This document shows positions 36,260-64,000 of a stretch of 64,000 bases of DNA, piece by piece. The number at the start of each line of letters is the position of its first letter. Position 1 is the stretch's first letter. The position numbers were made by a program, and so were the translations under genes. The notes beneath the pieces are model-generated. The model did not search any database. It was given only the letters and a program-made list of their open reading frames with translations, and was not told the DNA's origin. This stretch comes from Adineta ricciae (lineage: Eukaryota; Rotifera; Eurotatoria; Adinetida; Adinetidae). The DNA is taken from assembly GCA_905250025.1 (NCBI GenBank), contig CAJNOJ010000311.1, positions 49,525 through 113,524 of the forward strand, read 5' to 3'.

Positions 36260-36699
36260 TCTTAAGAAAAATGAACCACTCAATTCGTACTGCATGTTCA
36301 ATTAGAATACAAAATTCTCATCTTCTCATGACACAACCACTAGAGGCATCTACCGATCATAATTTCTCTCCATACAGAACTACAACGATGTACATAGATA
36401 AACCATGGACTGAAATCAGTTGAGGTGTTCTGGCAAGCTTCAATCAGTCTCATCGCATATCTCTTGTAGATATATGTAATGATATTTCACCTCAGAAAGA
36501 ATATCAAACTGTTCCGTATCTAAAGACGATCTAAATAGAGGTGTATTACTTAACAATCATTCCGAAAAAACAAGAAAACCTGTTTCAATTCATGATCTCC
36601 GTTCGCCGATGAACATTCAAATTCTCCTCTTCTTTAACAACAATTCAGCACAAATCATTTTCTCATTCTCACTTTTCTAGATTAACTTCAGCTTGCACG

Positions 36700-39600
36700 A
36701 TGTTTTGCGGGAAATGCTCACTGACAGCTCGGTGTGTCGTTCTACCCTTATATGAAATATCAACCGTCGTTACTGGTCGTCATTTCTCAACTACGTTAAA
36801 TGCACGAATGAAGAAACTCATTGATTCCAAACAATTTCGACATGCTCTCGACATTTTTGATAAGCAATCACACGCTGCTGATGATTTCGCTTTGAACATG
36901 GCACTCAAAGCGTGTAGTAACTTGCCAGACTATCGACGTGGACTTGAAATCGTTCGACAACTCTCACCCAAATCTCTCAACAATCCTTTCATTCAAACAT
37001 CACTTATTCATTTCTACAGTGAGTGAAAACAAACGACAGGATGTGAAGGAGAGAAGTGCTGACTCGTGGAAAAGTTCCGAATGAAACAGTTTTCTCATCT
37101 CTTGTGACTGTTTCATGATCCATTTCCAATACTTTTCGAAGAGAACATTCTCAAAGGTTATCGTTTGTGTGACAGCCTCATATGACCGAAAGACAATGAA
37201 AATAAGAAGTTGTTTCTATTTGAAGTGAAATCCGGTGACTTGAAGAGTGCAATCGGTTTGTTCAACTCAATCCCGGTCAAGACGAATCCATTTTATACAA
37301 CGTTGTTCAAAGGTAGATTTTTATTTAACAGATTGAAAAATAAATCCGTTCTGATATTTAGGGCTGACATCGATGAAAAAGTCGAAGGAAGTGTTGAACT
37401 TGTATGAACAGAACAAAATGAAGTTAGACGAAGGTGTGTTTGTAATGGTATCAAAGGCGTGTTCTGAAATATGTGATGATCGAGCGAAGAGGATAGGGAA
37501 ATTATTAATTGACGATTTACCTGAAGATTTGAAAGGTTCTGAAAAAGCGATGAACTCAACGATCTTTATGTTGATGAAGTTTGGAAACGTTGATGAAGCT
37601 GAGCAACTCTTTCGCCAAATGAAACACAAATCTATCTACACTTATGGTGCTATGATGAAAGGTGAGTAAAACTTTTCGATTCATGAAAAATATCCATTCG
37701 ATTCAACTTGATCAAATTTGTTAAGGTTATAACGATAATAAAAAGTTCGAGAAAACATTGGATCTGTTTGAGACATTACCATTCGTCGCAGACGAAGCGA
37801 TCTACGCGATGGTTTTAAGCGCTTGCTCTCAGCTTACAAATGATCGTGCGAGAAGAATTGGAAAGCAGTTAATCAATGATTTACCTGAAGATTTCAAACG
37901 TTCTGAAAACGTAATGAATTCGACGATCTTTATGTTAATGAAATTTGGAAACGTCGTCGAAGCTGAGCAACTCTTTCGTCAGATGAAACACAAAACTATC
38001 TACACTTATGGTGCCATGATGAAAGGTGAGCGAAACTTTTCGATTGATAAACAACGCCAATTCGATTCAACTTGATCAAATTTGTTAAGGTTATAACGAT
38101 AATGAAATGTTTGAAAAAGTGTTGGATTTGCATGTTAATATGCCCATGGCTGTGGATGAAGTTATGCATACAATTCTGTTCAGCACATGCACACGTCTAT
38201 CCAATGATCGAGCATTACAAATAGGAAAAGAACTTCTCCGCAAGATGAATAAGCCCTATTATAACAATAATATCGTCATCACATCAGCTATTCACATGTT
38301 GATGAAATTCGATCTGGTGAATGATGCTGAACGTTTGTTTCGTCAAGTCAAAACAAAAAGTGCTCTTACTTATCATGCAATGATCAATGGATACAGTCAA
38401 CTAGACGAGTTGGACAAGTGTTTTCAGCTGTTTGATCAAATGAAAAGTGATCAAATTCTTCCAAATGAAGTTGTATTTCTTTCAATGATCGGTGTTTGTG
38501 CCAAAATTGCGATACGCTCAGTATCTCAGTCAATTGTTGATCAAATACCTGCCGATCTGAAAAGTAGTCGAAATATTCAAAATGCGTTGATTTCCATGTG
38601 GGTGAGTGCGGTCAGCCCAGTGGAGAACATCATTGTACTGACAGTATTTGTTTTGATTTTGTTTAGGGCAAAAAATAGCTCGATAGGAAAAAGTAAAGAA
38701 ATATTCGAATCATTGAGTGATCCAGATGTGGTGGCATATAATTCAATGAGTGAGTATAGATTTTGTTTTCTTGAGGCAAGCGTCAATATTTTTGAAAACG
38801 ATGCTATTTTATGTTTTTGTAGTAAATTCATATGGACTGAACGGGATGGGTGTTGAGGCTGTCGAACTGTATAGAAGAATTCCTGTTGACATACGTGATG
38901 AAGTGTCCCGTATATGTGCGTTGAATGCGTGTTCTCATGCCGGTTTGTTAAATGAATGTCGTCACATATTCGACCAGATACCTCACAAAACAATAAAGAT
39001 TGTCACCACAATGGTTTGTTTGTTTGACCTCATCTCAATGAGAGCATATATGTTGATGTATTAGGTTGATTGTTTGAGTCGTTTGGCAATGTTTGATGAA
39101 GCAGAATCAGTCATCGAAGATTATGAAAAGACAAATCCACCTTCCTCCGCTATGTACAGTGAGCATTACCAATGTAGAGAAAACTCTGGATCAATCTCTT
39201 CATTCACATTTCATTTTAGCGGCATTGTTGTCTGGAGCACGCAATGTTCGTGACTCGAATCTGTCTAATCGAATCTACAAGAAAATGCAACAACTGTTTC
39301 CTGATGAGAAAAACACACTCATAGCTGGTTCCGTTCTCTTGTCAAATATTTATTCGTCCATAGGTGATCATCATCGTGCAGGAGATATCCGTACCAATAG
39401 AATCAAACAGTTTGGATATAATGTGAAAGTTGCCTTATCTTGGACTTCGGTGAACAATCAACTGGTGGTAGGATTTGTTTGAAAACGTTACGGAACTGAG
39501 AGGTGAAGTTGATTTTCGTTGCGTTATTCTTCTTTTTAGCGATTCAAAGCTCATGATCATTCTCATCCTCAATCGGAGGAGATCTATGAAGAACTGCAAC

Positions 39601-39963
39601 GTTTATCGTGTGAGCTCCGTGAACATGGTCACACATTCGACAGCAGTTGGATCACTCGTCCAGTGAAAGAGGATGAAACAGTGGAAAGTGTGTTGTGTGG
39701 TCATAGTGAAAAGTTGGCGATTGCATTCAACTTCATTCAACAACCGCCTCCTTCCATCATACAAATCAGTAAAAATCTTCGTATTTGTGGTGATTGTCGT
39801 AAGTGAACAATACTGGCACTGAAATTCAGTCATAGTTGTGCTTCTCTTAGATGCAGCTACGAAACTCATAACGAAACTGCGTCGGTGTGAAATCATCATT
39901 CGGGACGCAAATCGAATTCATCATTTTTCCAATGGAAAGTGTTCATGTCAAGATCATTTCTGA
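36700..39963 (+). pseudogene. PPR-DYW protein, copy 1 (one-base frameshift in exon 6)
   Basis: Exons 36700-37018, 37226-37312, 37362-37661, 37726-38025, 38090-38601, 38667-38749, 38823-39013, 39065-39158, 39220-39467, 39540-39798 and 39851-39963. Same architecture as the intact copy at 53723. Exon 6 starts GGC followed by six A instead of five, so normal splicing gives GGC AAA AAA TAG and stops the protein before the E and DYW regions. If the 65-bp intron before it is retained, the extra A restores the frame with no stop, inserting about 22 mainly hydrophobic residues. It is therefore either a pseudogene or a gene using intron retention. Confidence 0.8.
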
Positions 39964-40299
39964 ATCGTCGTTTCTTCTCTCAGTCAGATGGTGTGTGTTT
40001 CATGAAATAAATGACATGAAAGGTTGTTTTTGTCGTCAAAAGATAGCTGTAGATAACTTATGTTCCAGAAAAGAATTTAACATTTCAAGGCTTTTCACAC
40101 TGTGGATAGCATGGGCTGTAGATATATTTTGCACTGTTATGATTGGGGACAGAAGCGTAAGATCGTTCGGATGATTTATTTTAAGAAAATATTGTTTTCC
40201 AACCATATACACCGATTGATGTTAACATGGCGTTCGATGGCTTTTTTCATCCACAGTTGTGTCATCTATTCTTCGTGCGCCTCCCAATAGACAGAGCAA

Positions 40300-40738
40300 A
40301 CCTTTGCTAGAATCAATGCAATTTTTAATGAAACTGTGAAGGGTAAACTAAGCGCATACGAATCCCAAGATTATTTAATTGAATTTGGATTGACTGGAGA
40401 TGATCGGTGGACTTTCATGATTGTCTTAAGATCCTTGTCCAGTCTTCTATTGAAGTGGCAGATGATATAAGGTTCATTCGATGAAAGTGTGGATGATGGA
40501 ACAGAGTCCATTAATGGAAACAACTGATGAAGCGCCTTTCAGTTGGCAACACACGAATCATCTAATACAAGGTGAATGTTATGAGAACGTAGGAAGAACA
40601 CCATTTCGTGGAACAGTAGAGGCCATGTCAGACTCATGGACTATATTACACGAACTCCATTCGACAGTGGATAAAAACAATGAAGTGTCTGAACAAGAAA
40701 AACTTGTTCTATTCATTGTCAATTATCTCCAGTTCTGA
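40300..40738 (+). pseudogene. Conserved degraded ORF downstream of PPR copy 1
   Basis: A stretch shared by units 1-3 reads, with frame changes, as protein-like segments (GLTGDD, then SWQHTN...GECYEN and AMSDSWTILHELHSTVDKN). Copies are at 47310-47760 and 57140-57590. The family is unrecognised. It is probably a remnant of a second gene carried within the duplicated unit. Confidence 0.4.
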
Positions 40739-40999
40739 ATAAAGAGGTGGTCAGAAGAATTGCTGGAAGTAGAACGTTAACCGAAATAGATTGGAGACTC
40801 ACGCATCCCCGAAGGTTGGATTCAGAATGGATATTTATCATGTAGGAGAAAATGAAAATGTAATTCAGGATATATTTCATTGCAACGATAAGGCAAAGAC
40901 AGAAAAATTGCAAGCATGTCATCAATTCGAAAGAAGTTAAGAGAAGAGTTCTATTGAACACAAAGCGTGTTTCACTCCAACATTGCAAATAGAAGTAAC

Positions 41000-41007
41000 C
41001 TTGAGAA
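41000..41007. repeat. Left 8-bp target-site duplication CTTGAGAA
   Basis: Identical to 43571-43578. The uninterrupted unit at 57852-57859 carries this octamer once, and unit 2 has CTTGAGCA at 48021-48028. Confidence 0.9.
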
Positions 41008-41909: not shown

Positions 41910-42194
41910 TCAAAAAATGAAAGAGGTACATTCTCGTTTTGTCTTTTTGTCAAGTTCATCTAAACGTTTCAGTTCAGCGTCTTGCGCAGAAGGAGGTTGA
42001 ACTTGTAGAAACTTCATGTGGGAAGATCGAAGTATAACTATATCCCCTTTCTTCACTCTACTGAGTGGTGCATATATTGATGCTACTTGCAGTGTCCCAG
42101 GCGGAACTTGAAGATCGACTACGATTTTGTTCATTGTGAGTCCTTGCGCCTTGTATGTAGTTATAGCGAAGGCAGGTACAATTCCCGACCCCAA
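41910..42194 (-). pseudogene. Helitron helicase C-terminal relic inside the hAT-like element
   Basis: Reads VPAFAITTYKAQGLTMNK...PLSRVKKGDIVIL, the end of a Pif1-type Helitron helicase, closely related to 4105-4749 and with the canonical KAQG. It is cut at its 5' side exactly where the 124-bp tandem array begins. A GTAACGCTCGTC motif follows 400 bp downstream (41479-41511), as in the first relic. Confidence 0.8.
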
Positions 42195-42840
42195 AATGTC
42201 TTCGGTAAATTTTTATAGAAAAAAACGTCGCCCTTTGTACAAAAAAACTAATGCATGTAAACATTTACAAAAAATAGCGCCAGATTCGAGTTCATCGACC
42301 CAAATAACTCCTTAGCCAAATTTTATAAAAAAGCTTTTTTTTGTAAAAAACGGCTCTTTGTCTAAAACATCATTTTTTACAAAGAATTTCGAGAAACTAA
42401 CATCAGATTTGAATTCCTGCGCCCCAAAAGCCCTTTGGTAAAATTTTATAAAAAAAAATTTTTTGTAAAAAATTGGGTCTTTGTCTCAAAAAAAGAATTT
42501 TTTTTATGAAAAATTTCAAAGAGATGACATCAGATTCGAGTTCCTCGACCCAAAAAACCCTTTCGTCAGTCTTTATAAAAAAACATTTATTTTGATAAAA
42601 AAATGTCCTTTGTCTCAAGAAATTTTTCTACAAAAAATTTCGAGAATCTAGCATCAGATTCGAGTTCCTCCATCCAAAAAATCTTTTGGTAAAATTTTAT
42701 CAAAAAAAATTTTTTTGTAAAAAAGTCATTCTTTGTCTAAACAAATTTGTTTTATGAAAAATTTCCAAAAAATAACATCAGATTCGAAGTCTCCGCATCG
42801 AAATACATCTAGAAATATCTTTTCGGAAAAATTGATTTTC
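42185..42840. repeat. Tandem array of about five 124-bp repeats
   Basis: The word CAGATTCGAG (or variant) recurs at 42281, 42404, 42531, 42655 and 42779, spacing 123-127 bp. It is each time followed by CCTC..CCC, a TTTTATAAAAAA tract and CTTTGTCT. Units are A/T-rich and diverged. There is no coding potential. Confidence 0.85.
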
Positions 42841-44095: not shown

Positions 44096-46985
44096 ATGTT
44101 TTGTAGTAAATGCTCACTGACAGTTCGTTGCGTCTTTCTACCTTTGAATGAAATATCAACCTTCATCACTACTCGTCATTCCTCAACTACGTTAAATGCA
44201 CGAATGAAGAAACTCATTGATTCCAAACGATATCGACATGTTCTCGACATTTTTGATAAGCAATCACACGCTGCTGATGATTTCGCTCTGAACATGGCAC
44301 TCAAAGCGTGCAGCAATTTGCAAGACTATCGACGTGGACGTGGAATCGTTCGACAACTCTCACCCAAATCTCTCAACAATCCTTTCATTCAAACATCACT
44401 TATTCATTTCTACAGTGAGTGAAAACAAACGAAAGGATGTGAAGGAGAGACGTGCTGACTCGTGGCAAAGATCAGAATGAAACAGTTTTCTCATCTCTTG
44501 TGAGTGTTTCATGATCCATTTCCAATACTTTTCGAAGAGAACATTCTCAAAGGTTATCGTTTGTGTAACAGTCTCATATGACCGAAAGACAATGAAAATA
44601 AGAAGTTGTTTCTATTTGAAGTGAAATCCGGTGACTTGAAGAGTGCAACCGATTTGTTCAACTCAATTCCGGTGAAGACGAATCCACTTTATACAACATT
44701 GTTCAAAGGTAGATTTTTATTTAACTGATTGAAAAATAAATCTGTTCTGATATTTAGGGCTGATATCGATGAAAAAGTCGAAAGAAGTGTTGAACTTGTA
44801 CGAACAGAACAAAATGAAGTTAGACGAAGGTGTCTTTGTGATGGTATCAAAGGCATGTTCTGAAATATGTGATGATCGAGCGAGAAGAACTGGAAAACAG
44901 TTAGCCGATAATTTACCTAAAGATCTCAAAGGTTCCGAAAAAGTGATGAACTCGACGATCTTTATGTTGATGAAATTTGGAAACGTCGATGAAGCTGAGC
45001 AACTCTTTCGTCAGATGAAACACAAAACTATCTACACTTATGGTGCTATGATGAAAGGTGAGTCATCTGCTTCACTTAACCAGAAGTATTCGATTAAATT
45101 TGGTTAGGTTACAATCATAACCAGATGTTTGAAAAAGCACTGAATTTATTTCATCAAATGGATCTGGCTCCTAATGAAAACATACTAACCATCATCTTCA
45201 ACACATGTACACATCTATTTAATGATCGAGCATTACAAATAGGAAAAGAACTTCTGCGCAAGATGAACAAGTCCTATTATAACAATGATATCGTCATCAC
45301 ATCAGCTATTCACATGTTGATGAAATTCGATCTGGTGAATGATGCTGAACGATTGTTTCGTCAAGTCAAAACAAAAAGTGCTCTCACTTATCATGCAATG
45401 ATCAATGGATACAGTCAACTAGACGAGTTGGACAAGTGTTTTCAGCTGTTTGATCAAATGAAAAGTGATCAAATTCTTCCGAACGAAGTTGTGCTTCTTT
45501 CAACGATCGGTGTTTGTGCAAAAATTGGCATACGCTCAGTATCTCAGTCAATTGTTGATCAAATACCTGCCGATCTGAAAAGTAGTCGAAATATTCAAAA
45601 TGCGTTGATTTCCATGTGGGTGAGTGCGGTCAGCCCAGTGGAGAACATCATTGTACTGACAGTATTTGTTTTGATTTTGTTTAGGGCAAAAATAGCTCGA
45701 TAGGAAAAAGTAAAGAAATATTCGAATCATTGAGTGATCCAGATGTGGTGGCATATAATTCAATGAGTGAGTATACATTTTCTTTGCTTGAGACAAACGT
45801 CAATATTTTTGAAAACGATGCTATTTTATGTTTTTGTAGTAAATGCATATGGATTGAACGGGATGGGTGTTGAGGCTGTGGAACTGTATAGAAGAATTCC
45901 TGTTGACATGCGTGATGAAGTGTCCCGTACATGTGCGTTGAATGCGTGTTCTCATGCCGGTTTGTTGAACGAATGTCGTCATATATTCGATCAGATACCT
46001 CACAAAACAGTAAAGATTGTCACCGCAATGGTTTGTTTCTTTGTTTGACCTAATCTCAATGAGAGCATATATGTTGATGTATTAGGTTGATTGTTTGAGT
46101 CGTTTGGCAATGTTTGATGAAGCAGAATCAGTCATCGAAGATTATGAAAAGATAAATCCACCTTCGTCTGCTATGTACAGTAGGAATCGATGAGAATGAA
46201 GCATGGTTCGTTTTTACTTCGTCACTGTTATTTCGTTTCAGTGGCATTGCTGTCTGGAGCCCGCAATGTCCGCTATTCGAATCTCTCAGATCGAATCTAC
46301 AAGAAAATGCAACAACTGTTCCCTGATGAGAAAGACACACTCATAGCCGGTTCCGTTCTCTTGTCAAATATTTATTCGTCCATAGGTGATCATCATCGTG
46401 CAGGAGATATCCGAACCACTAGAATCAAACAGTTTGGATATAATGTGAAAGTTGGCTTATCGTGGACTTCGGTGAACAACCAACTGGTGGTAGGATTTGT
46501 TTGAAAACGTTACGGAGCTGAGAGGTGAAGTTGATCTTCGTTGCGTTATTCTTCTTTTTAGCGATTCAAAGCTCATGATCATTCTCATCCTCAATCGGAG
46601 GAGATCTATGAAGAACTGCAGCGTTTATCGTGTGAGCTCCGTGAACATGGTCACACATTCGACAGCAGTTGGATCACTCGTCCAGTGAAAGAGGATGAAA
46701 CAGTGGAAAGTGTGTTGTGTGGTCATAGTGAAAAGTTGGCGATCGCATTCAACTTCATTCAACAACCACCTCCTTCCATCATACAAATCAGTAAAAATCT
46801 TCGGATTTGCGGTGATTGCCGTAAGTGAACAATATTGGCACTGAAATTCAGTCATAGTTGTGCTTTTCTTAGATGCTGCTACGAAACTCATAACGAAAAT
46901 GCGTCGGTGTGAAATCATCATTCGGGACGCAAATCGAATTCATCATTTTTCCAATGGAGAGTGTTCATGTCAAGATCATTTCTGA
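44096..46985 (+). CDS. PPR-DYW protein, copy 2 (734 aa, one PPR exon fewer)
   Basis: Exons 44096-44414, 44622-44708, 44758-45057, 45108-45619, 45685-45766, 45840-46030, 46086-46179, 46242-46489, 46562-46820 and 46873-46985, open throughout. It lacks one of the two tandem 300-bp PPR exons of the other copies. Its third exon begins like exon 3 ([13 protein letters not shown]) but from CDDRARR on looks like exon 4 (GKQL..NLP), and its following intron is the type found after exon 4 in copy 4. This is the product expected of unequal crossing-over. The DYW end is complete (HSEKLA, CGDCH, CSCQDHF). Likely imported into mitochondria; see the copy at 53723 for the family role. Confidence 0.85.
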
Positions 46986-48092: not shown

Positions 48093-48806
48093 GTTGGCGA
48101 AGGCTATCCATTTAGCAACAACTGCCCGAATGAAATAAAATGCGCCAACTGTGGCTCGAATCACTATGCTGGACACTCAGCGTGTCCTCACGTGTAGCAA
48201 ATAAGGCGCGAAATTAGCCAAAATCTAAAGATGAAAAGAACCGAGCTGCTCATCAGTCATGAAGAACAACTACACAACAAACGAGACCAAGACAAGCTAA
48301 TCTATTCTCCTCAGTCGCAACCGAAGAGCGTCTAGAAGCCTTCGCTGTATAGTGACATGCTCCAAGGACGCGTCCACCCGATTTCAATCGCAAGTGATTA
48401 CGAAACAAGTAGCCTGGAAAACCTTCTGGTTGAATCCACCAACAAAATCGAAAATCACCTTCGATAAATAGAAGAGTGGGTAATTAAGCAAGTTATCAAA
48501 TCAGAAAAAAAATGAGATAAAGCCAATAATGCAGCACAGGAGGTTGAAACGATGGTTCAGGATAAAATCCTCCCGGTAATCAAGCTACTTTTAAAACAAG
48601 CTATGAATAATTCTAGAAATGTAGCTGTTAAAGACGAGCTGGTGAAATTCCACAACGAGATTTGCTCGTCCCGGTCGAGTCTCGATAATATCGCCCTTAA
48701 TGAACTTAAGACCTTAAACAAACCGAAACCATCCTATCTGTCGTCCGAAAGAACAAACCATGCAATCACGGATGGATCCGATGAAGTTGACCAGTCATGT
48801 GAATAG
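48093..48806 (+). pseudogene. LINE ORF1 relic with zinc knuckle
   Basis: One frame reads KCANCGSNHYAGHSACP, the C-x2-C-x3-H-x6-C nucleic-acid-binding knuckle of Jockey-type ORF1 proteins. It then continues through several stops (TAG after CPHV, further TAG/TGA) to a charged helical tail ending at 48806. Non-functional. Confidence 0.75.
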
Positions 48807-49629
48807 TCCAGCAATTAACAAAAGCCTGGTAGAATATGCTGAAAGGAAATTTAGGCAGCTTGTTTCAGGGTTATCAAAATTTGAACAACAAATAGGATTA
48901 TCTATGATTCATGACTGGTATAGAAATGAACGCAAGCAACAAGTGATAGAAAAGTGGAAACAACCAAAGACGAACACCGATGTCAAAGCAGCTAAGTTGA
49001 CGATACTTCATTACAATATTCGACACTTTTATTCAAACCAGTGCGATTTGCTTGACATGATCACCCATCGCATCCCGATGATAATTTCTTTAAATGAATT
49101 CGGATCTCCAATACCCGAAAAAACGATAAAACAACTACTTTTCTCGTATAACATTGTTATGAAAGCAGGTACCAACTCTCACGGTGGAGTTGTGCTAGCA
49201 ATTAACAAGAAATTGAACGAAATCCCAATCAACAGCCCGGAATCGAACATCGTAGCAGCAGAAATAACAATAAACGACGAAACGTTTATCATTGCGTCGA
49301 TTTACTCACCACGAAATGAGAAACTATCATTATAAACAATGGCATCATTTCATCTGAAATCGACAAACGTAATAATTGTAGGCGATCTAAACGCAAAACA
49401 CCCGGGCTGGGGTTGCATTCAAACGAATAAAAAAGGCCGGGTTCTAGCGGAGTGGCTAGCCAAGACGGAAATATACGAAATTCAAAACCAAGGTATGAAG
49501 ACCTCTCTCCGATCTGACACCACCATCGATCTAATTATGACAACACCGAAAATAGCACTGGTGAATTGTAGAACTTTGCCGTACACAAGTAGTGATCACA
49601 AGGGGGAAACGGCGGACTTTAAGTGGTAA
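48760..49629 (+). pseudogene. LINE ORF2, apurinic endonuclease-like domain
   Basis: The exonuclease-endonuclease-phosphatase fold is recognisable: LTILHYNIRHF, ISLNE (catalytic Glu region), GGVVLAI, GDLNAKHPGWG (catalytic Asp/Asn) and SSDHKG (catalytic Asp-His). An in-frame TAA at 49333-49335 splits the domain. The frame ends where foreign sequence begins at about 49620. Confidence 0.85.
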
Positions 49630-50176
49630 AGTACAAAAGTAGTTTCAAGTATGTTCAAGTTGCTCAAAGTGCCGAAAATCGATTCAAAGTAACTCTGAAT
49701 TACAGCAAAGTACTTGTAAATTACATCGAAATCTTTGAAATTACGTTGAGTTACTTGAGATGACGTCAACGTGCGAGACTGCTAACTGAAATCGAATAAT
49801 GATTGCCAAGGATAAAGTAATGTTGTAAATATCCGAATGAAAACTTTATCGCATAGCAAAGAAAGTAAGAGCATTAATCGAGAGAAAAATAGATGTGAGC
49901 AACTTATTGTCTATTATGTGTTGTTTGCTGCTGCACACGAGATAAACGATCACTAGATAGCTTGAATGAGTTGTTCGGCAGTAGCCAGCAGGCAAATTGC
50001 TTATGGAGATACTTGCTTTTCCCGTTATAATATTCAGTTTGGAAAACGACTGTTAGACAGCAGGGTTACAATTATCAGTTATTCGGATTCCATCAAAATC
50101 TGATTTGATTGAGTTTAATACGGTTTCACTATCATCATCGTCGTCACTACCCATCTCAGTTGGAAAACTAAATTGT

Positions 50177-50487
50177 CATGGTTCCCGATTGTTTTTTAAA
50201 GTGGGGGGGCTAAAATTTTCCAGCAACAGGGGAAAAAGTGAAGTGTAAAAACAAGGGATGACATTACAAGAAGTTTTTGCCAGAAAACCAAGTTAAAGAC
50301 CAAAAAAAAAAAAAAACCTGTACCCCCCTCCAAGTTGCGACCCGGTCTACAGAAAACCGGTTTCTTTCTGGCAAGATTCTTAAAAAATTCTCGCAGAAAC
50401 TTTCTGTCGAAATGGCAGAAAGTCGACCGCATTTTCGAATTTTGGGGGGGGCTGGCCCCCCCAGCCCCCCCCTGATCGGGAGCCCTG
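50177..50487. mobile_element. hAT-type MITE, 311 bp
   Basis: Flanked by identical 8-bp duplications TAAATTGT (50169-50176 and 50488-50495). Ends: CATGGTTCCCGATT on the left and CAGGGCTCCCGAT (complement) on the right. It contains runs of G and C (GGGGGGGCTGGCCCCCCC near 50443-50460) and a poly-A run, giving strong local GC contrast. The 8-bp TSD and CAGGG-like end indicate hAT. Confidence 0.88.
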
Positions 50488-51189
50488 TAAATTGTGTTTC
50501 ACCAGCGACTTGGTCTGGTGCGTAATTGGTTTCATCGTCATCCTCTTCGTCTAAGTCGAACTCTTCAATAAAATCATGCTCCAATAATGAGGAATAATCA
50601 ATCATTCTTGAATTTTTCTTCAGTACATCGGAAACATGCTTACTTAAACTATTTATACCATGTAACCCTGACTTTTCTAATATCTCCAATATCTGCGAAT
50701 GCTCAACAAGATCTATCGCTTCGTCGTATGCGATCGATATTATTTGCACAATATCCAACGTATCAATGGCATCTAACGAAGACAGCGATGTGGCCAATGA
50801 TTGTGCATGTTCGCGCTTGTAATGAGTAGGGAACGATAATTCTTTCTGCAATGAATTGTTTTTTATCTGATTCAATATCGATAGTTTTTTTGAACGACGA
50901 ATGAAATCTTTCACCGTAAAATTGATTGTTGAAGAGAACGTGCCACTTAAGGATCTTGCATCTCTAAAAATTGCTTCACATGGTTGTGAACTGAATAGAT
51001 GTATATTGATCAGCGCTTGTTTGGGCAATTGTTTCTCTTGCACTAACAGAATCAGATACGGCAGATTATGAGCATTGAGCTCAACAGACATGCATGCTGG
51101 TCTCGTGATGAAACATTTGCTAGCTTCACTGGTTCTGTCATAACTAGTTGTAACAGTTGATGATACTTTATTAGATGATGCTTTTTGTA

Positions 51190-51501
51190 CCCAGGTTGAC
51201 CAATCCCGTACTCGGATTCGATCGGATACAATATAGGATTTTATCGGATCCTACAGGAATTCGACGGATCCGATGAAATCCGGATGACGGAATCGCATTG
51301 GATTCCGATGGTCTCGGATCCGAAACATGAATTTTCCGGATTTTCTAAGGGTCACCATAGGATATAGCTAGAAAGATCGCTCATAAAATTTGCAATAACC
51401 GACTGAATTTTTCTAGTCGGATTCCGATGCGATTCCATTTCCAGGAATCCGATCGGATTTTGTTGGCTGGTCGGATCCAGCATTTGATTTGTTGACCTGG
51501 G
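51190..51501. mobile_element. MITE with CCCAGGT...ACCTGGG ends (copy 2)
   Basis: 312 bp. Left end CCCAGGTTGACCAATC and the complement of the right end CCCAGGTCAACAAATC match at 13 of 16 positions. The interior is made of GGATCCG/CGGATT words in both orientations, as in copy 1 (6328-6569, where the word is TTCCGG). No clear TSD. It interrupts the transposase-like gene. Confidence 0.7.
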
Positions 51502-51652
51502 ATGTCTAAACAAAGTTGCGGACCCAGTACCTACAACCAACCAATTAAGACCGATATCATTGTTGCCCGTGTTGAGCAAAGTATATGAAAAGCTATTTTT
51601 ATTAAGATTCGACAAACGGCTCAGCGAGAATAACGTTCTACTTACATAGCAA

Positions 51653-52576
51653 TCAGAATCTACACGTCATCAATCAACCTTAACAAGGGTCAATCATCTG
51701 GTGGAACAACTATCTCAATCGCTGACATACAACTCGTTTGTGGTGGTAGTGTACGTAGACTTCCTACAGGCATTCGATATGCTATGGTATCCCGGACTAA
51801 TATGGAAATTAAACAGGTTACAATGCCTGTCCGCGTACTTACTCTGGATTATTAACTACTTCAAGGACAGGACACTTACTATTGACTATCATGAATATCG
51901 TTCAAGGCCGATCAACGTCTGCCGTGGAGCTCTACAAGGGTCGTGTTTCGGCCCAAAAGCATTCATTGTCAATCATTATGATTTACCTATGAACTATGAA
52001 AACCCAAGTGCAGTGCATTTGTACGTCGATGATCTCACGATAGTGTACATCCCACCAATCTCACAAAAATACGCAATCCAAAAGCATACGATACAAAGTA
52101 TCATCAACAAGGACTTGGAAAAACTACGAATCTATACGGAAGATAACCTACAACCAGTGAACGTGAAGAAAACGGAGTACGTAATATATCACACATCGGT
52201 ACAACGTCCGAAACTAGAAATCATGTACTCAGGTCAGGCCATTCATAGACAAAAATCGTATAAATATTTAGGTTTTTACCTCGGCGCCAATCTGTCGCTC
52301 AGATCGATGCTACACGCACAATTTATAAAACTCAGAAAGTCATACAAAATTATGAAGTACATTCATGGAGCCTTCCCAATCTTCTTCAAGTTGAAAGAAA
52401 AGTTCTTTCAGACGTACGCACAGCCACACATGTACTCGATGCCACCATTTACTGCTTATAGTCTTCAACCAATCAAGAACATATTGACCCTTTCGATCCC
52501 GAGAATTTCTTGCGTTCCGTATGAACACGAAAAATATATAAAATCTCTCTCTCTTGCGTTGAATCAGCTGTATTAG
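51653..52576 (+). pseudogene. LINE ORF2, reverse transcriptase fragment
   Basis: Reads QSTLTRVNHLVEQL, then VVVVYVDFLQAFDMLW (RT motif A, catalytic Asp), GALQGSCFGP (motif B, degenerate from PQGSxLGP), LYVDDLTIVY (motif C, YVDD) and YKYLGFYL (motif D/E region). The palm is complete, but fingers and the connection to the endonuclease are missing, so it is inactive. The region to 53260 is decayed 3' sequence. Confidence 0.88.
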
Positions 52577-53269
52577 AATCTAATGCGATTATCGAGATAT
52601 AAGAAACATGAAGAAACACATGAAAATTTCGTCCAACACATGATATTCGTCTTCTAAGTAGACGACAGAACGAAAAAATATCTTTCGTGTTCTCTATGGC
52701 ATCTACGAGATGCCATGCGGGATCGAAAGGGTTAACGCATTCTATAGAAGACGCAGTAGAATGATCTACAACACTTTCAGAGCCAAATCCAAACATCTAC
52801 ATACGTCAATGGAGATCCCAACTCTGGATCCGAGATTTCGAAGAAGTCTCCTCGGAAGACTGGATAGTATACAACGATACGAGCCCGACAGGGTGAATTG
52901 TATCCTACCACACAGCAGCAGTCATCAAACTGCTTCCAGCTGGTCAACCGCCCAAGAGGATTAGAGCCCTCAGATCGGACCATGCCACTGCGTTCTTCGA
53001 TAAATTATGCGAATTTGCATGGAAATAATCTAGGATCACGCAACAACGAAGTGCCAACTGCCTACACCTCCATACTCGAATTTCACATCATCATTTCCCA
53101 ACAGCAATTGGCCCGCCGTTAGTAGCTTACTTCCTTCTCGATTGTTCTAGTCATTATTGGCCTCGGCTTCTAGCTTAGTAGTGTCATTGTATAGAGGAAT
53201 CGGCTGTCAGCACCTCAGGGATGAATCGGCCGTAATAAATTCCGGCATTATAAAAAAAAACTCGTCAAA

Positions 53270-53722
53270 CTAAGACGAACAACTCAATTCGCATACTAGT
53301 CGTTCAATTGAAATCAACTATTCATAAGCTCCAATATCCAATCCAGTTAGCAGGGGCATCTATCGAAACTCATTTCTCTGCACCGCACATACAAACCAAA
53401 CCAAACGAAATACATAGATAAACCATGGACTGAAATCAGTTGAAGTGTTCTGGTAAGATTCAATCAGTCTTATCGCATATCTCTTGTAGATATATGTAAT
53501 GATATTTCACCTCAGACAGAATATCAACCTGTTCCGTATCTAAAGACGATCTAAATAGAGGTGTATTACTTAACAATCATTCCGAAAAAAGAAGAAAAGC
53601 TGTTTCAATGCATGATCTCCGTTCGCCGATGAACATTCAAATTCTCTTCTTCTTCTTTGACAACAATTCAGCACAAATCATTTTCTCATTCTCACTTTTC
53701 TAGACTAACTTTAGTTTGCACG
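53270..53722 (+). other. Upstream region of PPR unit 3
   Basis: Homologous to 43571-44095 and equivalents, and presumably the promoter. Directly follows the LINE's right TSD (53261-53269). Confidence 0.5.
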
Positions 53723-56700
53723 ATGTTTTGCGGGAAATCCTCACTGACAATTCGGTGTGTCTTTCTACCCTTGAATGAAATATCAACCGTCGTTACTGCT
53801 CGTCATTTCTCAACTACGTTAAATGCACGAATGAAGAAACTCATTGATTCCAAACGATATCGACAAGCTCTCGACATTTTTGATAAGCAGTCACACGCTG
53901 CTGATGATTTCGCTCTGAACATGGCACTCAAAGCGTGCAGTAATTTGCCAGACTATCGACGTGGACTTGAAATCGTTCGACAACTCTCACCCAAGTCTCT
54001 CAACAATCCCTTCATTCAAACGTCACTTGTTCATTTCTACAGTGAGTGAAAACAAACGAAAGGATGTGAAGGAGAGACGTGCTGACTCGTGGCAAAGATC
54101 AGAATGAAACAGTTTTCTCATCTCTTGTGAGTGTTTCATGATCCATTTCCAATACTTTTCGAAGATAACATTCTCAAAGGTTATCGTTTGTGTGACACTC
54201 TCATACGGCCGAAAGACAATGAAAATAAGAAGTTGTTTCTATTCGTAGTGAAATCCGGTGACTTGAAGAGTGCAATCGGTTTGTTCAACTCAATCCCGGT
54301 GAAGATGAATCCACTTTATACAACGTTGTTCAAAGGTAGATATTCCTATTACTTCGTTCACCATCAAGAAATAAATGTATTGTGATAAGTAGGACTGATA
54401 TCGATGAAAAAGTCGAAAGAAGTGTTGAACTTGTATGAACAGAACAAAATGAAGTTAGACGAAGGTGCTTTTGTGATGGTATCAAAGGCATGTTCTGAAA
54501 TATGTGATGATCGAGCGAAGAGGATTGGAAAACAACTGATGGACGATTTACCTGAAGACTTGAAAGGTTCTGAAAAAGTGATGAACTCGACGATCTTCAT
54601 GTTGATGAAATTCGGAAACGTCGATGAGGCTGAGAAACTCTTTCGCCAGATGAAACACAAAACTATCTACACTTATGGTGCTATGATGAAAGGTGAGTGA
54701 AACTTTTCGATTCATGAAAAATATCCATTCGATTCAACTTGATCAAATTTGTTAAGGTTATAACGATAATAAAAAGTTTGAGAAAACATTGGATCTGTTT
54801 GAGACATTACCATTCGTTGCGAACGAAGCGATCTACACAATGGTTTTAAGCTCTTGCTCTCAGGTTAGAGATGATCGTGCGAGAAGAATTGGAAAACAGT
54901 TAATCGATAATTTACCTGAAGATTTGAAAGGTTCTGAAAATGTGATGAACTTGACGATTTTTATGTTAATGAAATTTGGAAACGTCGTTGAAGCTGAGCA
55001 ACTCTTTCGTCAGATGAAACACAAATCAATTTACACTTATGGTGCCTTGATGAAAGGTGCGTAAAACTTTTCGATTGATAAACAACACCCATTCGATTCA
55101 ACTTGATCAAATTTGTTAAGGTTATAACGATAATGAAATGTTTGAAAAAGTGTTGGATTTGCATGTTAATATGCCCATGGCTGTGGATGAAGTTATGTAT
55201 ACAATTCTGTTCAGCGCATGCACACGTCTATTCAATGATCGAGCATTACAAACAGGAAAAGAACTTCTGCGCAAGATGAACAAGTCCTATTATAACAATA
55301 ATATCGTCATCACATCAGCTATTCACATGTTGATGAAATTCGATCTGGTGAATGATGCTGAACGATTGTTTCGTCAAGTGAAAACAAAAAGTGCTCTTAC
55401 TTATCATGGAATGATAAATGGATACAGTCGACTAGACGAGTTGGACAAGTGTTTTCAGCTGTTTGATCAAATGAAAAGTGATCAAATTCTTCCAAATGAA
55501 GTTGTATTTCTTTCAATGATCGGTGTTTGTGCAAAAATTGGCATACGCTCAGTATCTCAGTCAATTGTTGATCAAATACCTGCCGATCTAAAAGCTAGTC
55601 AAAATATTCAAAATGCATTGATTTCCATGTGGGTGAGTGCGGTCAGTCCAGTGGAGAACATCTTTGTAGTGACAATGTTTGTTTTGATTTCGTTTAGGGC
55701 AAAAATAGCTCGATAGGAAAAAGTAAAGAAATATTCGAATCATTGAGTGATCCAGATGTGGTGGCATATAATTCAATGAGTGAGTATAGATTTTGTTTTC
55801 TTGAGGCAAGCGTCAATATTTTTGAAAACGATGCTATTTTATGTTTTTGTAGTAAATTCATATGGACTGAACGGGATGGGTGTTGAGGCTGTGGAACTGT
55901 ATAGAAGAATTCCTGTTGACATGCGTGATGAAGTATCCCGTATATGTGCGTTGAATGCGTGTTCGCATGCCGGTTTGTTAAATGAATGTCGTCATATATT
56001 CGATCAGATACCTCACAAAACAATAAAGATTGTCACCACAATGGTTCGTTTCTTGGTCTGTCTTCATCTCAATGAGAGCATATATGTTGATGTATTAGGT
56101 TGATTGTTTGAGTCGGTTGGCAATGTTTGATGAAGCAGAATCAGTCATCGAAGATTATGAAAAGACAAATCCACCTTCGTCTGCTATGCACAGTGAGCAT
56201 TACGAATGTAGAGAGAACTCTGGATCAATCTCTTCATTCACATTTCATTTCAGTGGCATTATTGTCTGGAGCCCGCAATGTCCGCGACTCCAATCTGTCT
56301 AATCGAATCTACAAGAAAATGCAACAATTGTTTCCTGATGAGAAAGACACACTCATAGCCGGTTCCGTTCTCTTGTCAAATATTTATTCGTCCATAGGTG
56401 ATCATCATCGTGCAGGAGATATCCGTACCAATAGAATCAAACAGTTTGGATATAATGTGAAAGTTGCCTTATCTTGGACTTCGGTGAACAATCAACTGGT
56501 GGTAGGATTTGTTTGAAAACGTTACGGAGCTGAGAGGTGAAGTTGATTTTCGTTGCGTTATTCTTCTTTTTAGCGATTCAAAGCTCATGATCATTCTCAT
56601 CCTCAATCAGAGGAGATCTATGAAGAACTGCAACGTTTATCGTGTGAGCTCCGTGAACATGGTCACACGTTCGACAGCAGTTGGATCACTCGTCCAGTGA

Positions 56701-56997
56701 AAGAGGATGAAACAGTGGAAAGTGTGTTGTGTGGTCATAGTGAAAAGTTGGCGATCGCATTCAACTTCATTCAACAACCACCTCCTTCCATCATACAAAT
56801 CAGTAAAAATCTTCGTATTTGTGGTGATTGTCGTAAGTGAACGATATTGGCACAGAAATTCAGTCATAGTTGTGCTTTTCTTAGATGCTGCTACGAAACT
56901 CATAACGAAACTGCGTCGATGTGAAATCATCATCCGAGATGCAAATCGAATTCATCATTTTTCCAATGGAGAGTGTTCATGTCAAGATCATTTCTGA
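53723..56997 (+). CDS. PPR-DYW protein, copy 3 (834 aa, intact)
   Basis: Exons 53723-54041, 54249-54335, 54393-54692, 54757-55056, 55121-55632, 55698-55779, 55853-56043, 56099-56192, 56254-56501, 56574-56832 and 56885-56997; all phases fit. The N-terminus (about 1-40) is Arg/Ser/Thr-rich, like a mitochondrial presequence. Residues of about 35-620 hold pentatricopeptide repeats ([50 protein letters not shown]) that bind RNA base by base. An E-type region follows ([24 protein letters not shown]). The DYW domain at 712-834 has HSE (766-768), CGDCH (794-798) and ends CSCQDHF. In plants such proteins perform C-to-U editing in organelles. Reading the domain as plant-derived in rotifers is established for the family; activity here is inferred. 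Confidence 0.9.
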
Positions 56998-58361: not shown

Positions 58362-61300
58362 ATGTTTTGTAGTAAATGCTCACTGACAGTTCGTTGCGTC
58401 TTTCTACCCTTGAATGAAATATCAACCTTCATCACTACTCGTTATTCCTCAACTACGTTAAATGCACGGATGAAGAAACTCATTGATTCCAAACAATTTC
58501 GACATGCTCTCGACATTTTTGATAAGCAATCACACGCTGCTGACGATTTCGCTTTGAACATGGCACTCAAAGCGTGTAGTAATTTGCCAGACTATCGACG
58601 CGGACTTGAAATCGTTCGACAGCTCTCACCCAAATCTCTCAACAATCCCTTCATTCAAACGTCACTTATTCATTTCTACAGTGAGTGAAAACAAACGACA
58701 GGATGCGAAAAAGAGACGTGCTGACTCGTGGCAAAGATCAGAATGAAACAGTTTTCTCATCTCTTGTGAGTGTTTCATGATCCATTTCCCATACTTTTCG
58801 AAGAGAACATTCTCAAAGGTTATCGTTTGTGTGACACTCTCATACGGCCGAAAGACAATGAAAATAAGAAGTAGTTTCTATTTGAAGTGAAATCCGGTGA
58901 CTTGAAGAGTGCAATCGGTTTGTTCAACTCAATTCAGGTGAAGATGAATCCACTTTATAAAACGTTGTTCAAAGGTAGATTTTTATTTAACTGATTGAAA
59001 AATAAACCCGTTCTGATGTTTAGGGCTGATATCGATGAAAAAGTCGAAAGAAGTGTTGAACTTGTATGAACAGAACAAAATGAAGTTAGACGAAGGTGTT
59101 TTTGTAATGGTGTCAAAGGCGTGTTCTGAAACATGTGATGATCGAGCGATGAGGATTGGAAAACAACTGATAGACGATTTACCTGAAGATTTGAAAGGTT
59201 CTGAAAAAGTGATGAACTCCACGATCCTTATGCTGATGAAGTTCGGAAACGTCGATGAGGCTGAGAAACTCTTTCGCCAGATGAAACACAAAACTATCTA
59301 CACTTATGGTGCTATGATGAAAGGTGAGTGAAACTTTTCGATTCATGAAAAATATCCATTCGATTCAACTTGATCAAATTTGTTAAGGTTATAACGATAA
59401 TAAAATGTTTGAGAAAACATTGGATCTGTTTGAGACATTACCATTCGTTGCGAACGAAGCGATCTACACAATGATTTTAAGCTCTTGCTCTCAGGTTAGA
59501 GATGATCGTGCGAGAAGAATTGGAAAGCAGTTAATCTATAATTTACCTGAAGATTTGAAAGATTCTGAAAACGTTATGAATTCGACGATCTTCATGTTGA
59601 TGAATTTTGGAAACGTCGTCGAAGCTGAGCAACTCTTTCGTCAGATGAAACACAAAACTATCTACACTTATGGTGCTATGATGAAAGGTGAGTCATCTGC
59701 TTCACTTAACCAGAAATATTCGATTGAATTTGCTAAGGTTACAATCATAACCAGATGTTTGAAAAAGCACTGGATTTATTTCATCAAATGGATCTGGCTC
59801 CTAATGAAAACATACTAACCATTATCTTTAACACATGTACACGTCTATCCAATGATCGAGCATTACTAATAGGAAAAGAACTTCTCCGCAAGATGAATAA
59901 GTCCTATTATAACAATAATATCGTCATCACATCAGCTATTCACATGTTGATGATATTTGATCTGGTGAATGATGCTGAACGTTTGTTTCGTCAAGTCAAA
60001 ACAAAAAGTGCTCTCACTTATCATGCAATGATCAATGGATACAGTCAACTAGACGAGTTGGACAAGTGTTTTCAGCTGTTTGATCAAATGAAAAGTGATC
60101 GAATTGTTCCAAATGAAGTTGTATTTCTTTCAATGATTGGGGTTTGTGGAAAAATTGGCATACGGTCAATATGTCAGCCAATCGTTGATCAAATACCTTC
60201 TCATCTGAAAGCTAGTAAAAATATTTACACTATTTTGATTTCGATGTGGGTAAGTGTTGTTGATCCAGTAGAAAACGTCGTTGTTAGTGACAACTGATGA
60301 AAGAATGTTTGTTTTGATTTTGTTTAGGGTAAAAGTAGTTCGATAGAAAAAAGTAATGAAATATTTGAATCGGTGAGTGATCCAGATGTTGTCGCGTATA
60401 GCTCAATGAGTAAGCATAGATTTAGTTTTCATGAGGAAACCATCAATATTTTTCAAAACTTTTCTCCATTTGATTTTTGCAGTAAATGCATATGGTTTGA
60501 ACGGCATGGGTGTTGAGGCTGTGGAATTGTATAGAAGAATTCCTCTTGGGATGCGCGACGAAGTGTCTCATGTGTGTACGCTGAATGCCTGTTCTCATGC
60601 CGGTTTGTTGAACGAATGTCGTCGCATATTCGATCAGGTATCTCACAAAACATCAAAGATTGTCACCACAATGGTTTGTTTTTTTGTTTGACCTCGTCTC
60701 AATAAGAACTTCTGTGTTGATGTGTTAGGTTGATTGTTTGAGCCGTTTGGCGATGTTTGATGAAGCAGAATCAATCATCGAAGACTATGAAAAGACAAAT
60801 CCGCCTTCGTGCGCTATGTACAGTACGCATTTCCAATGTAACAGAGATGCGATACCAATTTCTTCCTTCACACTTGACTTTAGCGGCACTACTATCTGGA
60901 GCACGCAATGTTCGCGATTCGAATCTGTCTAATCGAATCTACAAGAAGATGCAACAATTGTTCCCTGACGAGAAAAACACACTCATAGCTGGTTCTGTTC
61001 TCTTGTCAAATATTTATTCGTCCATTGGTGATCATCATCGTGCAGGAGATATCCGAACCAATAGAATCAAACAGTTTGGATATAATGTGAAAGTTGGCTT
61101 ATCTTGGACTTCGGTGAACAATCAACTGGTGGTAGGATTTGTTTGAAAACGTTACGGAGCTGAGAGGTGAAGTTGATTTTCGTTGCGTTATTCTTCTTTT
61201 TAGCGATTCAAAGCTCATGATCATTCTCATCCTCAATCAAAGGAGATCTATGAAGAACTGCAACGTTTATCGTGTGAGCTCCGTGAACATGGTCATACAT

Positions 61301-61627
61301 TCGACAGCAGTTGGATCACTCGTCCAGTGAAAGAGGATGAAACAGTGGAAAGTGTGTTGTGTGGTCATAGTGAAAAGTTGGCGATCGCATTCAACTTCAT
61401 TCAACAACCACCTCCTTCCATCATACAAATCAGTAAAAATCTTCGTATTTGTGGTGATTGTCGTAAGTGAACGATATTGGCACTGAAATTCAGTCATAGT
61501 TGTGCTTTTCTTAGATGCTGCTACGAAACTCATAACGAAACTGCGTCGGTGTGAAATCATCATCCGAGATGCAAATCGAATTCATCATTTTTCCAATGGA
61601 AAGTGTTCATGTCAAGATCATTTCTGA
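58362..61627 (+). CDS. PPR-DYW protein, copy 4 (834 aa, intact)
   Basis: Exons 58362-58680, 58888-58974, 59024-59323, 59388-59687, 59738-60249, 60328-60409, 60483-60673, 60729-60822, 60884-61131, 61204-61462 and 61515-61627. Open and in phase throughout. It is the most diverged copy in exons 5-8 (for example [13 protein letters not shown] where others have GKNSSIGKSKEIF, and a 78-bp intron 5). Its exon 5 is the [12 protein letters not shown] type shared with copy 2, not the MFEKVLDLHVNM type of copies 1, 3 and 5. DYW residues HSE, CGDCH and CSCQDHF are retained. The greater divergence with no disabling change suggests selection on the protein. Confidence 0.9.
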
Positions 61628-62385
61628 ATCGTCGTTTCTTCTCTCAGTCAGATGGTGTTTGTTTCATGAAACAACAAATGAAATGAAAGGTTGTTCGTTG
61701 CTGAAATACCACAACGAAAAGCAATCGGCTCTAGCATCTATGATAATGAATTGACAAGGCTTCTTGTTGAGGCGAAGAGAGCTTTCACATCGTTGGATCA
61801 ATGACTGATTTATATGCTACACTCTGAGTGAAGTGAAGTCTGGATGTTGTCTCGAGCAGATTTGATGTGTTCTGAACACGATGATATGCCTTTATGTGTT
61901 CAGCCAGTAATCTAGGCGAACGAAAAAAAGACGAATAAATATGAGATATTTAGAAAATGAACAAGATTGAATTGATATTGCCGAATCTGTCAGTGATTCT
62001 TGGAAAAATGGCGCACAGAAGGGGTTGTTTACACTATTGGGTGTATTTCGATGAATACATTCCAGTACAGAGAGTGCCGATTAGGTACCTGAACTCGTCC
62101 CCTTAGGACTTCCACGAATTTTATTTACATGAAGTTATACTCCCATGTTAAAAGTCTTGTTTCCTGTTGATCATTGTTGAATCAAAAATAAATATTTTGA
62201 CATTTTTTAATACCCGAGGGCGTGTTTTGCAAATCATATTGGATTAGAAGCTCATAGAACAGAAATTTATTAATCACGTATAGATATTTAGAGCTTTGCA
62301 AAACTTTATCTATATAAAATTTTGATATTCAAGTTTTGATAAAATAACGATAAAAAATTACGTGGAGCACAGATAGGCCTTTCCT
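61628..62385. other. Spacer; end of PPR unit similarity
   Basis: Similarity to other units stops at about 61690. The remainder is unique and shows no supported gene. Confidence 0.45.
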
Positions 62386-62745
62386 TTATAAACGACTTTT
62401 TTCTTTATTATTTTCTCTAGTTTTGTCTCGATATCGGAGATCAACACATAAACGGAAAAAGTCTTTTTGTTGTTTCGTTATTTTTTGTAAATCGAAATAT
62501 TCTTCATAGCGATAAACAGGAAACTGTGGTGTCCTTTGATGAACTAGTGTTGCAACTAAGACCAGTGCGTAAGCTGTTACACCCCAAATGTGATACTTAT
62601 CGACAGTAAAATGATGCGTCACGAAATCATCGCCAACTTCCAACATTTTATAGTTTTCATTGGCATGAAGAAATTGTTCTAAATCAACATAGAATGCATC
62701 GGTTGCTTCATCTGGTGATAGACGAAAATCGGTAAATTTTGGCGA
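62386..62745 (-). CDS. Nudix hydrolase, CoA diphosphatase type (NUDT7/8-like), C-terminal part
   Basis: A partial minus-strand gene whose 5' side is cut by the N at 62746. It encodes about 119 aa: LSPDEATDAFYVDLEQFL (in CoA-diphosphatase Nudix proteins, the segment after the catalytic box), IWGVTAYALVL (the conserved WGxTA strand) and a charged tail to a TAA. The Nudix box itself would lie beyond the break. Members hydrolyse CoA or acyl-CoA in peroxisomes or mitochondria. Assignment rests on WGxTA and the preceding SPDE segment. Confidence 0.65.
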   Translation of the reverse strand, partial: SPKFTDFRLSPDEATDAFYVDLEQFLHANENYKMLEVGDDFVTHHFTVDKYHIWGVTAYALVLVATLVHQRTPQFPVYRYEEYFDLQKITKQQKDFFRLCVDLRYRDKTRENNKEKSRL

Positions 62746-62746
62746 N
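62746..62746. other. Single N at a chimeric join
   Basis: Joins the middle of the Nudix exon (minus strand) to the last 22 bases of a PPR exon 1, with neither gene continuing across. It is the same type of join as at 33893. Confidence 0.85.
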
Positions 62747-64000
62747 ACATCACTTCTTCATTTCTACAGTGAGTGAAAACAAACGACAGGATGTGAACGA
62801 GAGACGAGCTGACTCGTGGCAAAGTTCCGAATGAAACAGTTTTCTCATCTCTTGTGACTGTTTCATGATCCATTTCTTATGCTTTTCGAAGAGAACATTC
62901 TCAAAGGTTATCGTTTATGTGACACTCTCATATGGCTGAAAGACAATGAAAATCAGAAGTTATTTCTATTTGTAGTGAAATCCGGTGACTTGAAGAGTGC
63001 AATCGGTTTGTTTAACTCAATTCAGGTGAAGATGAATCCACTTTATATAACGTTGTTCAAAGGTAGATATTCCTATTACTTCGTTCATCAAGAAATAAAT
63101 GTATTGTGATGAGTAGGGCTGATATCAATGAAAAAGTCGAAAGAAGTGTTGAACTTGTATGAACAGAACAAAATGAAGTTGGACGAAGGTGTTTTTGTGA
63201 TGGTATCAAAGGCATGTTCTGAAATATGTGATGATCGAGCGATGAGGATAGGAAAACAGTTAATCGATAGTTTACCTAGAGACTTGAAAGGTACTGAAAA
63301 AGTGATGAACTCGACGATCCTTATGTTGATGAAATTTGGAAACGTCGATGAAGCTGAGCAACTCTTTCGCCAGATGAAACACCAATCTATCTACACTTAT
63401 GGTGCTATGATGAAAGGTGAGTAAAACTTTTCGATTGATAAAAAACACCCATTCGATTCAACTTGATCAAATTCGTTTAGGTTATAACGATAATAAAATG
63501 TTTGAGAAAACATTGGATCTTTTTGAGACCTTACCATTCGTTGCGAACGAAGCGATCTACACAATGGTTCAAAGCTCTTGCTCTCAGGTTAGAGATGATC
63601 GTGCGAGAAGAACTGGAAAACAGTTAATCGATAATTTACCTGAAGATTTGCAAGGTTCTGAAAATGTGATGAACTCGACGATCTTTATGTTGATGAAATT
63701 TGGAAACGTCGATGAAGCTGAGCAACTCTTTCGTCAGACGAAACACCAATCTATCTACATTTATGGTGCTATGATGAAAGGTGAGTAAACCTTTTCGATT
63801 GATAAAAAACACCCACTCGATTCAACTTGATCAAATTTTTTAAGGTTATCACCATAATGAAATGTTTGAGAAAGTGTTAGATTTGTACGTTAATATGCCC
63901 ATAGCTGTGGATGAAGTTATGCATACAATTCTGTTCAGCACATGCACACGTCTATCCAATGATCGAGCATTACAAACAGGAAAAGAACTTCTGCGCAAGA
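62747..64000 (+). CDS. PPR-DYW protein, copy 5 (both ends missing)
   Basis: Exons: 62747-62768 (end of exon 1), 62976-63062, 63117-63416, 63481-63780 and 63845 to the window end inside exon 5. The reading frame is open. Intron 2 (ending GAGTAG) and exon 5 (MFEKVLDLYVNM) are of the same types as in copy 3, so it may be a further tandem gene or the other haplotype of copy 3. The N-terminus is lost at the single-N join, and the E/DYW part lies outside the window. Confidence 0.8.

Follow-up and report, generated by a model that had tools for sequence, protein, structure and literature searches.

Why would an animal genome carry a row of genes resembling the organelle RNA-editing factors of land plants, and what keeps them there? 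The question is raised by a stretch of 64,000 nucleotides from the bdelloid rotifer Adineta ricciae (assembly GCA_905250025.1, contig CAJNOJ010000311.1, positions 49,525 to 113,524; hereafter the window), which holds five tandem copies of a gene for a PPR protein ending in a DYW deaminase domain. Our best explanation, to which we give a probability of roughly 0.6, is that the copies are nuclear genes kept in the animal, that they encode RNA-binding cytidine deaminases of the plant PLS-E-DYW type acting at specific sites, and that these proteins are most likely imported into mitochondria.

Five tandem copies with a plant-type architecture

The array runs head to tail from 36700 to 64000 and comprises five PPR-DYW copies, c1 to c5 (Table 1), recognized by self-BLAST and by exon models that we built on splice sites common to the copies. 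All 42 modelled introns are of the GT-AG type (10 in c1, 9 in c2, 10 in c3, 10 in c4 and 3 in c5). The tandem units are about 87-94% identical to one another, and local tandem duplication is the best explanation for the array. The original prediction, made from the letters of the window, announced five copies with at least three intact members of 834 residues: there are indeed five copies, three of them intact, but only c3 and c4 have this length, c2 being a protein of 734 residues. The start proposed there for the array, at 36260, lies about 0.1 kb before the repeat unit (36371) and 0.4 kb before the first ATG.

The two remaining copies are damaged or cut short. The frame of c1 is open up to the end of exon 5 and shifted from exon 6 on: this exon (38667-38749) has 83 nt vs 82 in c2, c3 and c4, and the run of A at its start is one base longer. 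Copy c5 is bounded by a single N at 62746 on its 5' side and by the end of the contig (base 113524) on its 3' side. Start-to-start distances are 7396 (c1-c2), 9627 (c2-c3) and 4639 (c3-c4); extra inserted sequence is found within the two longer intervals.

In the c3 protein, Pfam recognizes PPR repeats (PF01535, 4.7e-40; PF13041, 1.3e-32) and an E+ motif (PF20430, 1.1e-05, 25.5 bits for a cut-off of 24) that precedes a DYW_deaminase domain (PF14432, residues 741-833, 2.4e-33, 114.2 bits for a cut-off of 24). A phmmer comparison with PDB chains retrieves a synthetic PPR-DYW protein (9kfx, 2.5e-113, over residues 368-833), the designed PLS9-PPR (5iww, 4.9e-39) and the DYW domain of OTP86 (7o4e, 2.9e-34). 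A motif map drawn by hand, guided by the PDB-chain alignments, counts 17 motifs in c3, the first two an L-S pair and the other 15 forming five P-L-S triplets, with E1 and E2 behind them. Protein c2 is one P-L-S triplet shorter. The HSE, CGDCH and C-terminal CSCQDHF motifs that had been read in the array are all present in the exon-model proteins, and the initial description of plant-type PPR-E-DYW proteins in an animal assembly agrees both with the Pfam matches (PPR, E+ and DYW_deaminase) and with the animal-type mitochondrial genome described below. At its N-terminus ([32 protein letters not shown]), c3 has a basic stretch containing a single acidic residue, which looks presequence-like by eye.

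Purifying selection and variable recognition residues

We computed the ratio of nonsynonymous to synonymous substitution rates (dN/dS) for the six pairs formed among the intact copies c2, c3 and c4 and a fourth intact copy, kA, located on contig C378. Over the full length, the ratio is 0.20-0.26. The comparison of copies 2, 3 and 4, suggested as a check when the array was first noticed, therefore gives values that are not near 1: these copies are maintained by selection. The presequence and PPR part yields 0.22-0.35 and the E+DYW part, the most constrained of the protein, 0.07-0.09; for the DYW domain alone the range is 0.02-0.26, on small counts. Even the two halves of the frameshifted c1 have low ratios (0.19-0.29 and 0.05-0.16), so that its frameshift is either recent or an assembly error. 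The intact copies are under purifying selection and the array is not decaying.

Against this conserved background, the residues expected to contact RNA bases vary more than the others. The fifth and last residues of the motifs are variable at 15 of 34 positions, vs 126 of the 530 remaining motif positions (Fisher p=0.013), in a hand-set motif frame and with partial copies included. Just ahead of the final motifs, the last S and P pairs are N-D/N-D in c3, T-D/S-D in c4 and N-D/S-N in kA; under the plant PPR code, these pairs would predict different bases near the target. An expansion serving several RNA targets, as initially proposed, is modestly favoured by this concentration of differences.

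Exons that match PPR modules

Exons 3 and 4 of c3 are in phase 1 at both ends, and each begins inside a P motif and ends at the equivalent point of the following one. One module exon fewer is found in c2 and in kA, with the frame kept. Matching boundaries also occur in a distant paralog, L015, where two exons of 297 nt share 35% and 28% identity with the window module. When 14 locus/strand entries were scanned with a strict pattern, module exons turned up in L015 and in the C378 copy only, and we dropped the claim that they are a feature of the whole family.

The nearest partner of a copy switches along the gene. Where exon 5 begins, c2 matches c4 at 95% and c3 at 84%; near exons 6-7, c3 matches c2 at 96% and c4 at 83%. 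These switches suggest sequence exchange between copies of the array. Contig C378 carries a second copy (L028:7430-9501) with 3' exons like those of the window family and a different 5' PPR part, as if shuffled.

A family of at least 83 loci

We searched the whole assembly (130.46 Mb, 1033 contigs); the locus counts are lower bounds. At least 127 exon-level matches were obtained in the DYW search and at least 137 in the search with the c3 domain. Merged, these amount to at least 83 DYW loci, which lie on 50 contigs and form 58 clusters, 17 of them with at least two loci. The lineage-specific expansion first proposed for the window is thus borne out at the scale of the genome.

The DNA of most of these loci was read as short stretches. 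Among 93 query-anchored rows, we used the 64 that cover at least 100 of 136 positions; of the 29 unused rows, six are C-terminal fragments that were joined to used rows, and the others, L093 included, were omitted. In the 64 near-complete DYW domains, where mean column conservation is 0.73, the active-site residues H, E, C and C are retained in 61, 63, 62 and 63 cases, respectively. The later HH and CSC residues, which we take to form the second metal site, are kept in 60-63 of the 64. The family has a characteristic tail, D-[HY]-F: D occurs in 59 of 63 domains, H or Y in 55 of 63, and F closes every one of the 63 domains that extend to the end. The active-site histidine is missing in three used rows (L067, L088 and L092), each of which also has three stops; stops in other rows may reflect intron read-through. 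The partial row L093 has lost the E and one C. Two related E/DYW remnants, L095 (contig C9) and L096 (contig C15), keep the CxxC region, and their HSE histidine is seemingly gone; they are likely degenerate members.

We observed an excess of clusters near contig ends: 18 of 57 lie within 10 kb of an end, vs 9.0 expected, and on contigs of at least 200 kb the figure is 6 of 34, vs 1.9 expected. We do not claim a subtelomeric placement, since this excess may be due to assembly breaks at repeats. In viral contigs and prokaryote genomes, a search by exact-peptide seeding, which reaches close relatives only, confirmed no relative of the DYW domain.

Mitochondrial genome and candidate editing sites

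How such proteins would act can be proposed from family knowledge. One PPR motif would read one RNA base, and the row of motifs would bring the zinc deaminase at the C-terminus to a C some four bases further downstream, which it would convert to U. Substitutions of recognition residues would retune this reader, and gain or loss of a phase-1 exon of one PLS triplet's length would shift it by three motifs while leaving the frame intact.

A compact mitochondrial genome of animal type, roughly 13.8 kb long, occupies the end of contig C55 (about 464400-478188; L011-L013), and the genes found are all on one strand. COX1, COB, COX2, COX3, ND1, ND4 and ND5 were confirmed through PDB relatives; ND2, ND6, ATP6 and ND3 were named by eye. 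The COX1 reading frame is open with 11 TGA codons, as in the invertebrate code. With such a mitochondrial genome, an animal host for the PPR-DYW genes is well supported if the assembly is that of one organism. The assembly attaches the mitochondrial sequence to the end of a nuclear contig, and the 464 kb stretch contains one N. On the coding strand the mitochondrial genes are C-poor (4-9% C per gene).

We compared the codons of the seven confirmed mitochondrial genes with one or two PDB relatives each, which we take to be from mammals, plus Drosophila for ND1, ND4 and ND5. Nine residues are restorable to the reference by a single C-to-U change, and several of these fall within strongly conserved motifs, namely L384 and A387 of COX1, S273 of cytochrome b, H197 of COX2 and P280 of ND4. 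The best candidates for editing are S273 of cytochrome b, which would become F (PEWYF), L384 and A387 of COX1, which would become F and V (AHFHYVLSMG), and H197 of COX2, which would become Y (YGQCSEICG). A further candidate, the PRSRYD motif of ND1, was dropped because its codon, AGA, is beyond C-to-U repair. Many other residues differ from the references in ways that C-to-U editing cannot mend. We also scored sites with the PPR code, using weights that are our own approximations. With kA, COX1 A387 ranks 2 among 901 C; with four proteins and the 622 coding C, its best rank is 2, and the other three strong candidates reach 21, 190 and 200. The base preceding the A387 C is G, which is disfavoured before edited C in plants. 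Two short, old nuclear fragments of COX1 on contig C450 (L098 and L099) have the same C at the L384 and A387 sites; these C are thus old, which does not decide the matter of editing. Five distant COX1 loci in viral contigs were not used.

Several observations weigh against the proposal that the family edits mitochondrial transcripts. First, C>T changes are not in excess in the codon test: they number 20.5 per 1000 C, vs 25.5-73.1 for changes of A, G or T to the reference base (other changes of C are C>G, 29.5, and C>A, 4.5 per 1000), and the strictest subset, 3 of 120 C or 25.0 per 1000, lies inside the range of the rest (4.8-28.6). Given the lack of a per-base C>T excess, the nine sites are leads only. 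Second, the 622 C in eleven mitochondrial genes offer few targets for about 80 loci. Third, the code match is weak, with P 0.04 relative to random coding C, for four and nine sites alike, and 44 of 400 motif shuffles as good; several fifth residues of P motifs (G, H) also fall outside the plant code. Finally, the D-Y-W tripeptide that gives the domain its name is replaced by D-[HY]-F, the Pfam cut-off being passed without it, and dN/dS for the DYW domain alone is noisy, the value of 0.26 for c3-c4 coming from three synonymous and three other changes. Taken as sequence, the mitochondrial data are compatible with a handful of edited sites and are evidence for none.

Alternative explanations

Could the proteins bind RNA without editing it? 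They may be specific binders acting in RNA stability, processing or translation, with a deaminase fold kept for structure or metal binding and little or no editing activity. Such a role would sit well with the lack of an excess of restorable C in mitochondrial genes and with a number of loci greater than that of plausible sites. The retention of each active-site H, E, C and C in 61-63 of 64 domains argues against it, as does the location of the strongest constraint in E+DYW, and we hold it to be unlikely.

A defence function, in which the family would act on nuclear, transposon or foreign RNA and its size and diversity would mirror many moving targets, is more doubtful again. At least 83 loci with 17 multigene clusters, recognition residues that change faster and mobile-element debris within the array would all be expected of it. 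Defence is harder to reconcile with an N-terminus that is presequence-like by eye, and the PPR part is itself under purifying selection in the intact copies (0.22-0.35).

That we are looking at a decaying array of pseudogenes is very improbable. The frameshift of c1, the incomplete c5 and the stops and lost active-site residues of some distant loci (L067, L088, L092 and the partial L093) point that way, but c2, c3, c4 and kA are intact and constrained, and the halves of c1 have kept low ratios. Contamination of the assembly by a plant or protist, although suggested by the plant-like proteins, is scarcely credible for genes with 9 or 10 introns each (modelled c1-c4 and kA) and DYW domains ending in F, which belong to a family dispersed on 50 contigs, share their contig with PLAC8- and P5CR-domain open reading frames (ORFs) and with a stretch matched on another contig (see below), and coexist with a compact, animal-type mitochondrial genome. 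Site-specific cytidine deaminases of the plant type, probably mitochondrial, thus remain our preferred reading.

Relation to known DYW proteins

Bdelloid DYW genes are already published; what we add is family size, module exons and selection. According to PMC4202320, the bdelloids Adineta ricciae and Philodina roseola possess DYW-type PPR proteins, rotifer sequences cluster with Naegleria, and horizontal transfer from early land plants is deemed likely; the paper cites a 2013 survey (Schallenberg-Rudinger 2013), and the rotifer occurrence is restated in PMC5295000. The array genes probably belong to the same gene family as these published proteins. Neither family size nor exon structure nor selection is covered in the passages of PMC4202320 on bdelloid DYW proteins. 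Our literature search, which covered few subscription journals, retrieved no report of DYW family size, exon structure or selection in animals, nor of editing in rotifer mitochondria.

Non-plant DYW-type PPR proteins are also described from Naegleria and Acrasis; according to PMC4202320 they are lineage-specifically expanded and regarded as horizontally acquired, and C-to-U editing of mitochondrial DNA transcripts is reported in Acrasis, whereas the present array is known from its genes alone. The horizontal origin put forward in the original prediction is in line with the published trees, but our own FastTree tree, with two plant-type references only, groups the DYW loci of this genome apart from both and cannot place the donor.

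With land-plant editing factors of the PLS class such as OTP86 and DYW1, the rotifer proteins have in common the P-L-S motifs, the E region, the HxE and CxxC deaminase residues and a start that looks presequence-like by eye. In contrast, c3 has ten introns, module-sized phase-1 exons, the D-[HY]-F family tail, several non-standard recognition residues and an animal host; plant PPR-DYW genes are mostly intron-poor.

Other features of the window

The insert between c2 and c3 lies outside the repeat unit; three of its ORFs were scanned against Pfam at E<=0.001 and gave no match. Helicase-like ORFs are seen at 4105-4746 and, inside the array in the c1-c2 interval, at 41913-42212, with a weak Herpes_Helicase Pfam match below the cut-off; both are perhaps derived from mobile elements. 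A tandem repeat of 141 bp (8.5 copies, 88%) at 1302-2505 has leucine-rich-repeat-like text by eye. The PLAC8 and P5CR domains carried by ORFs of the contig were identified with Pfam. The DNA lying 5-8 kb before the array recurs, with 94% identity, at the start of contig C100, a resemblance consistent with resolved homologous copies.

Table 1. Features of the PPR-DYW array, in window positions
Feature	Position	Strand	Basis
Tandem unit 1, carrying c1	36371..41005	+	Self-BLAST vs other units
Copy c1, 11 exons, frameshifted	36700..39963	+	Exon model, 10/10 introns GT-AG
Copy c2, 10 exons, intact, 734 aa, without exon-4 module	44096..46985	+	Exon model, open to stop
Insert between c2 and c3: LINE-like (long interspersed nuclear element) pieces and another minus-strand ORF	48718..52964		Endonuclease-/reverse-transcriptase-like ORF text, by eye
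Copy c3, 11 exons, intact, 834 aa	53723..56997	+	Exon model, Pfam, PDB relatives
c3 exon 3, 300 nt, phase 1, one PLS triplet's length	54393..54692	+	Exon model, hand motif map, 364-bp internal tandem repeat
c3 exon 4, second 300-nt phase-1 module, missing in c2	54757..55056	+	Exon model, internal tandem repeat
c3 exon 10, main DYW part with HSE and CGDC	56574..56832	+	Exon model, Pfam
c3 exon 11, DYW end, CSCQDHF tail, stop	56885..56997	+	Exon model
Copy c4, 11 exons, intact, 834 aa	58362..61627	+	Exon model
Copy c5, fragment, exon 1 end to exon 5 start	62747..64000	+	Alignment to other copies; 280 aa open

Implications

The array is part of a real, selected animal branch of a known kind of protein, with features of its own in the D-[HY]-F tail, the module exons and its large size. 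A bolder and quite tentative proposal is that C-to-U editing of the animal's mitochondrial mRNAs is carried out by a large, evolving set of plant-type PPR-DYW proteins, retargeted by gain or loss of single PLS-module exons. If the proteins are active, animal mitochondria would have site-specific C-to-U editing in the style of plants, performed by an acquired family of about 80 loci. Should no editing take place, the animal still possesses a large set of modular RNA readers under selection, for which we found no job in print, and a structure in which one exon equals one module would provide a simple route to altered RNA specificity.

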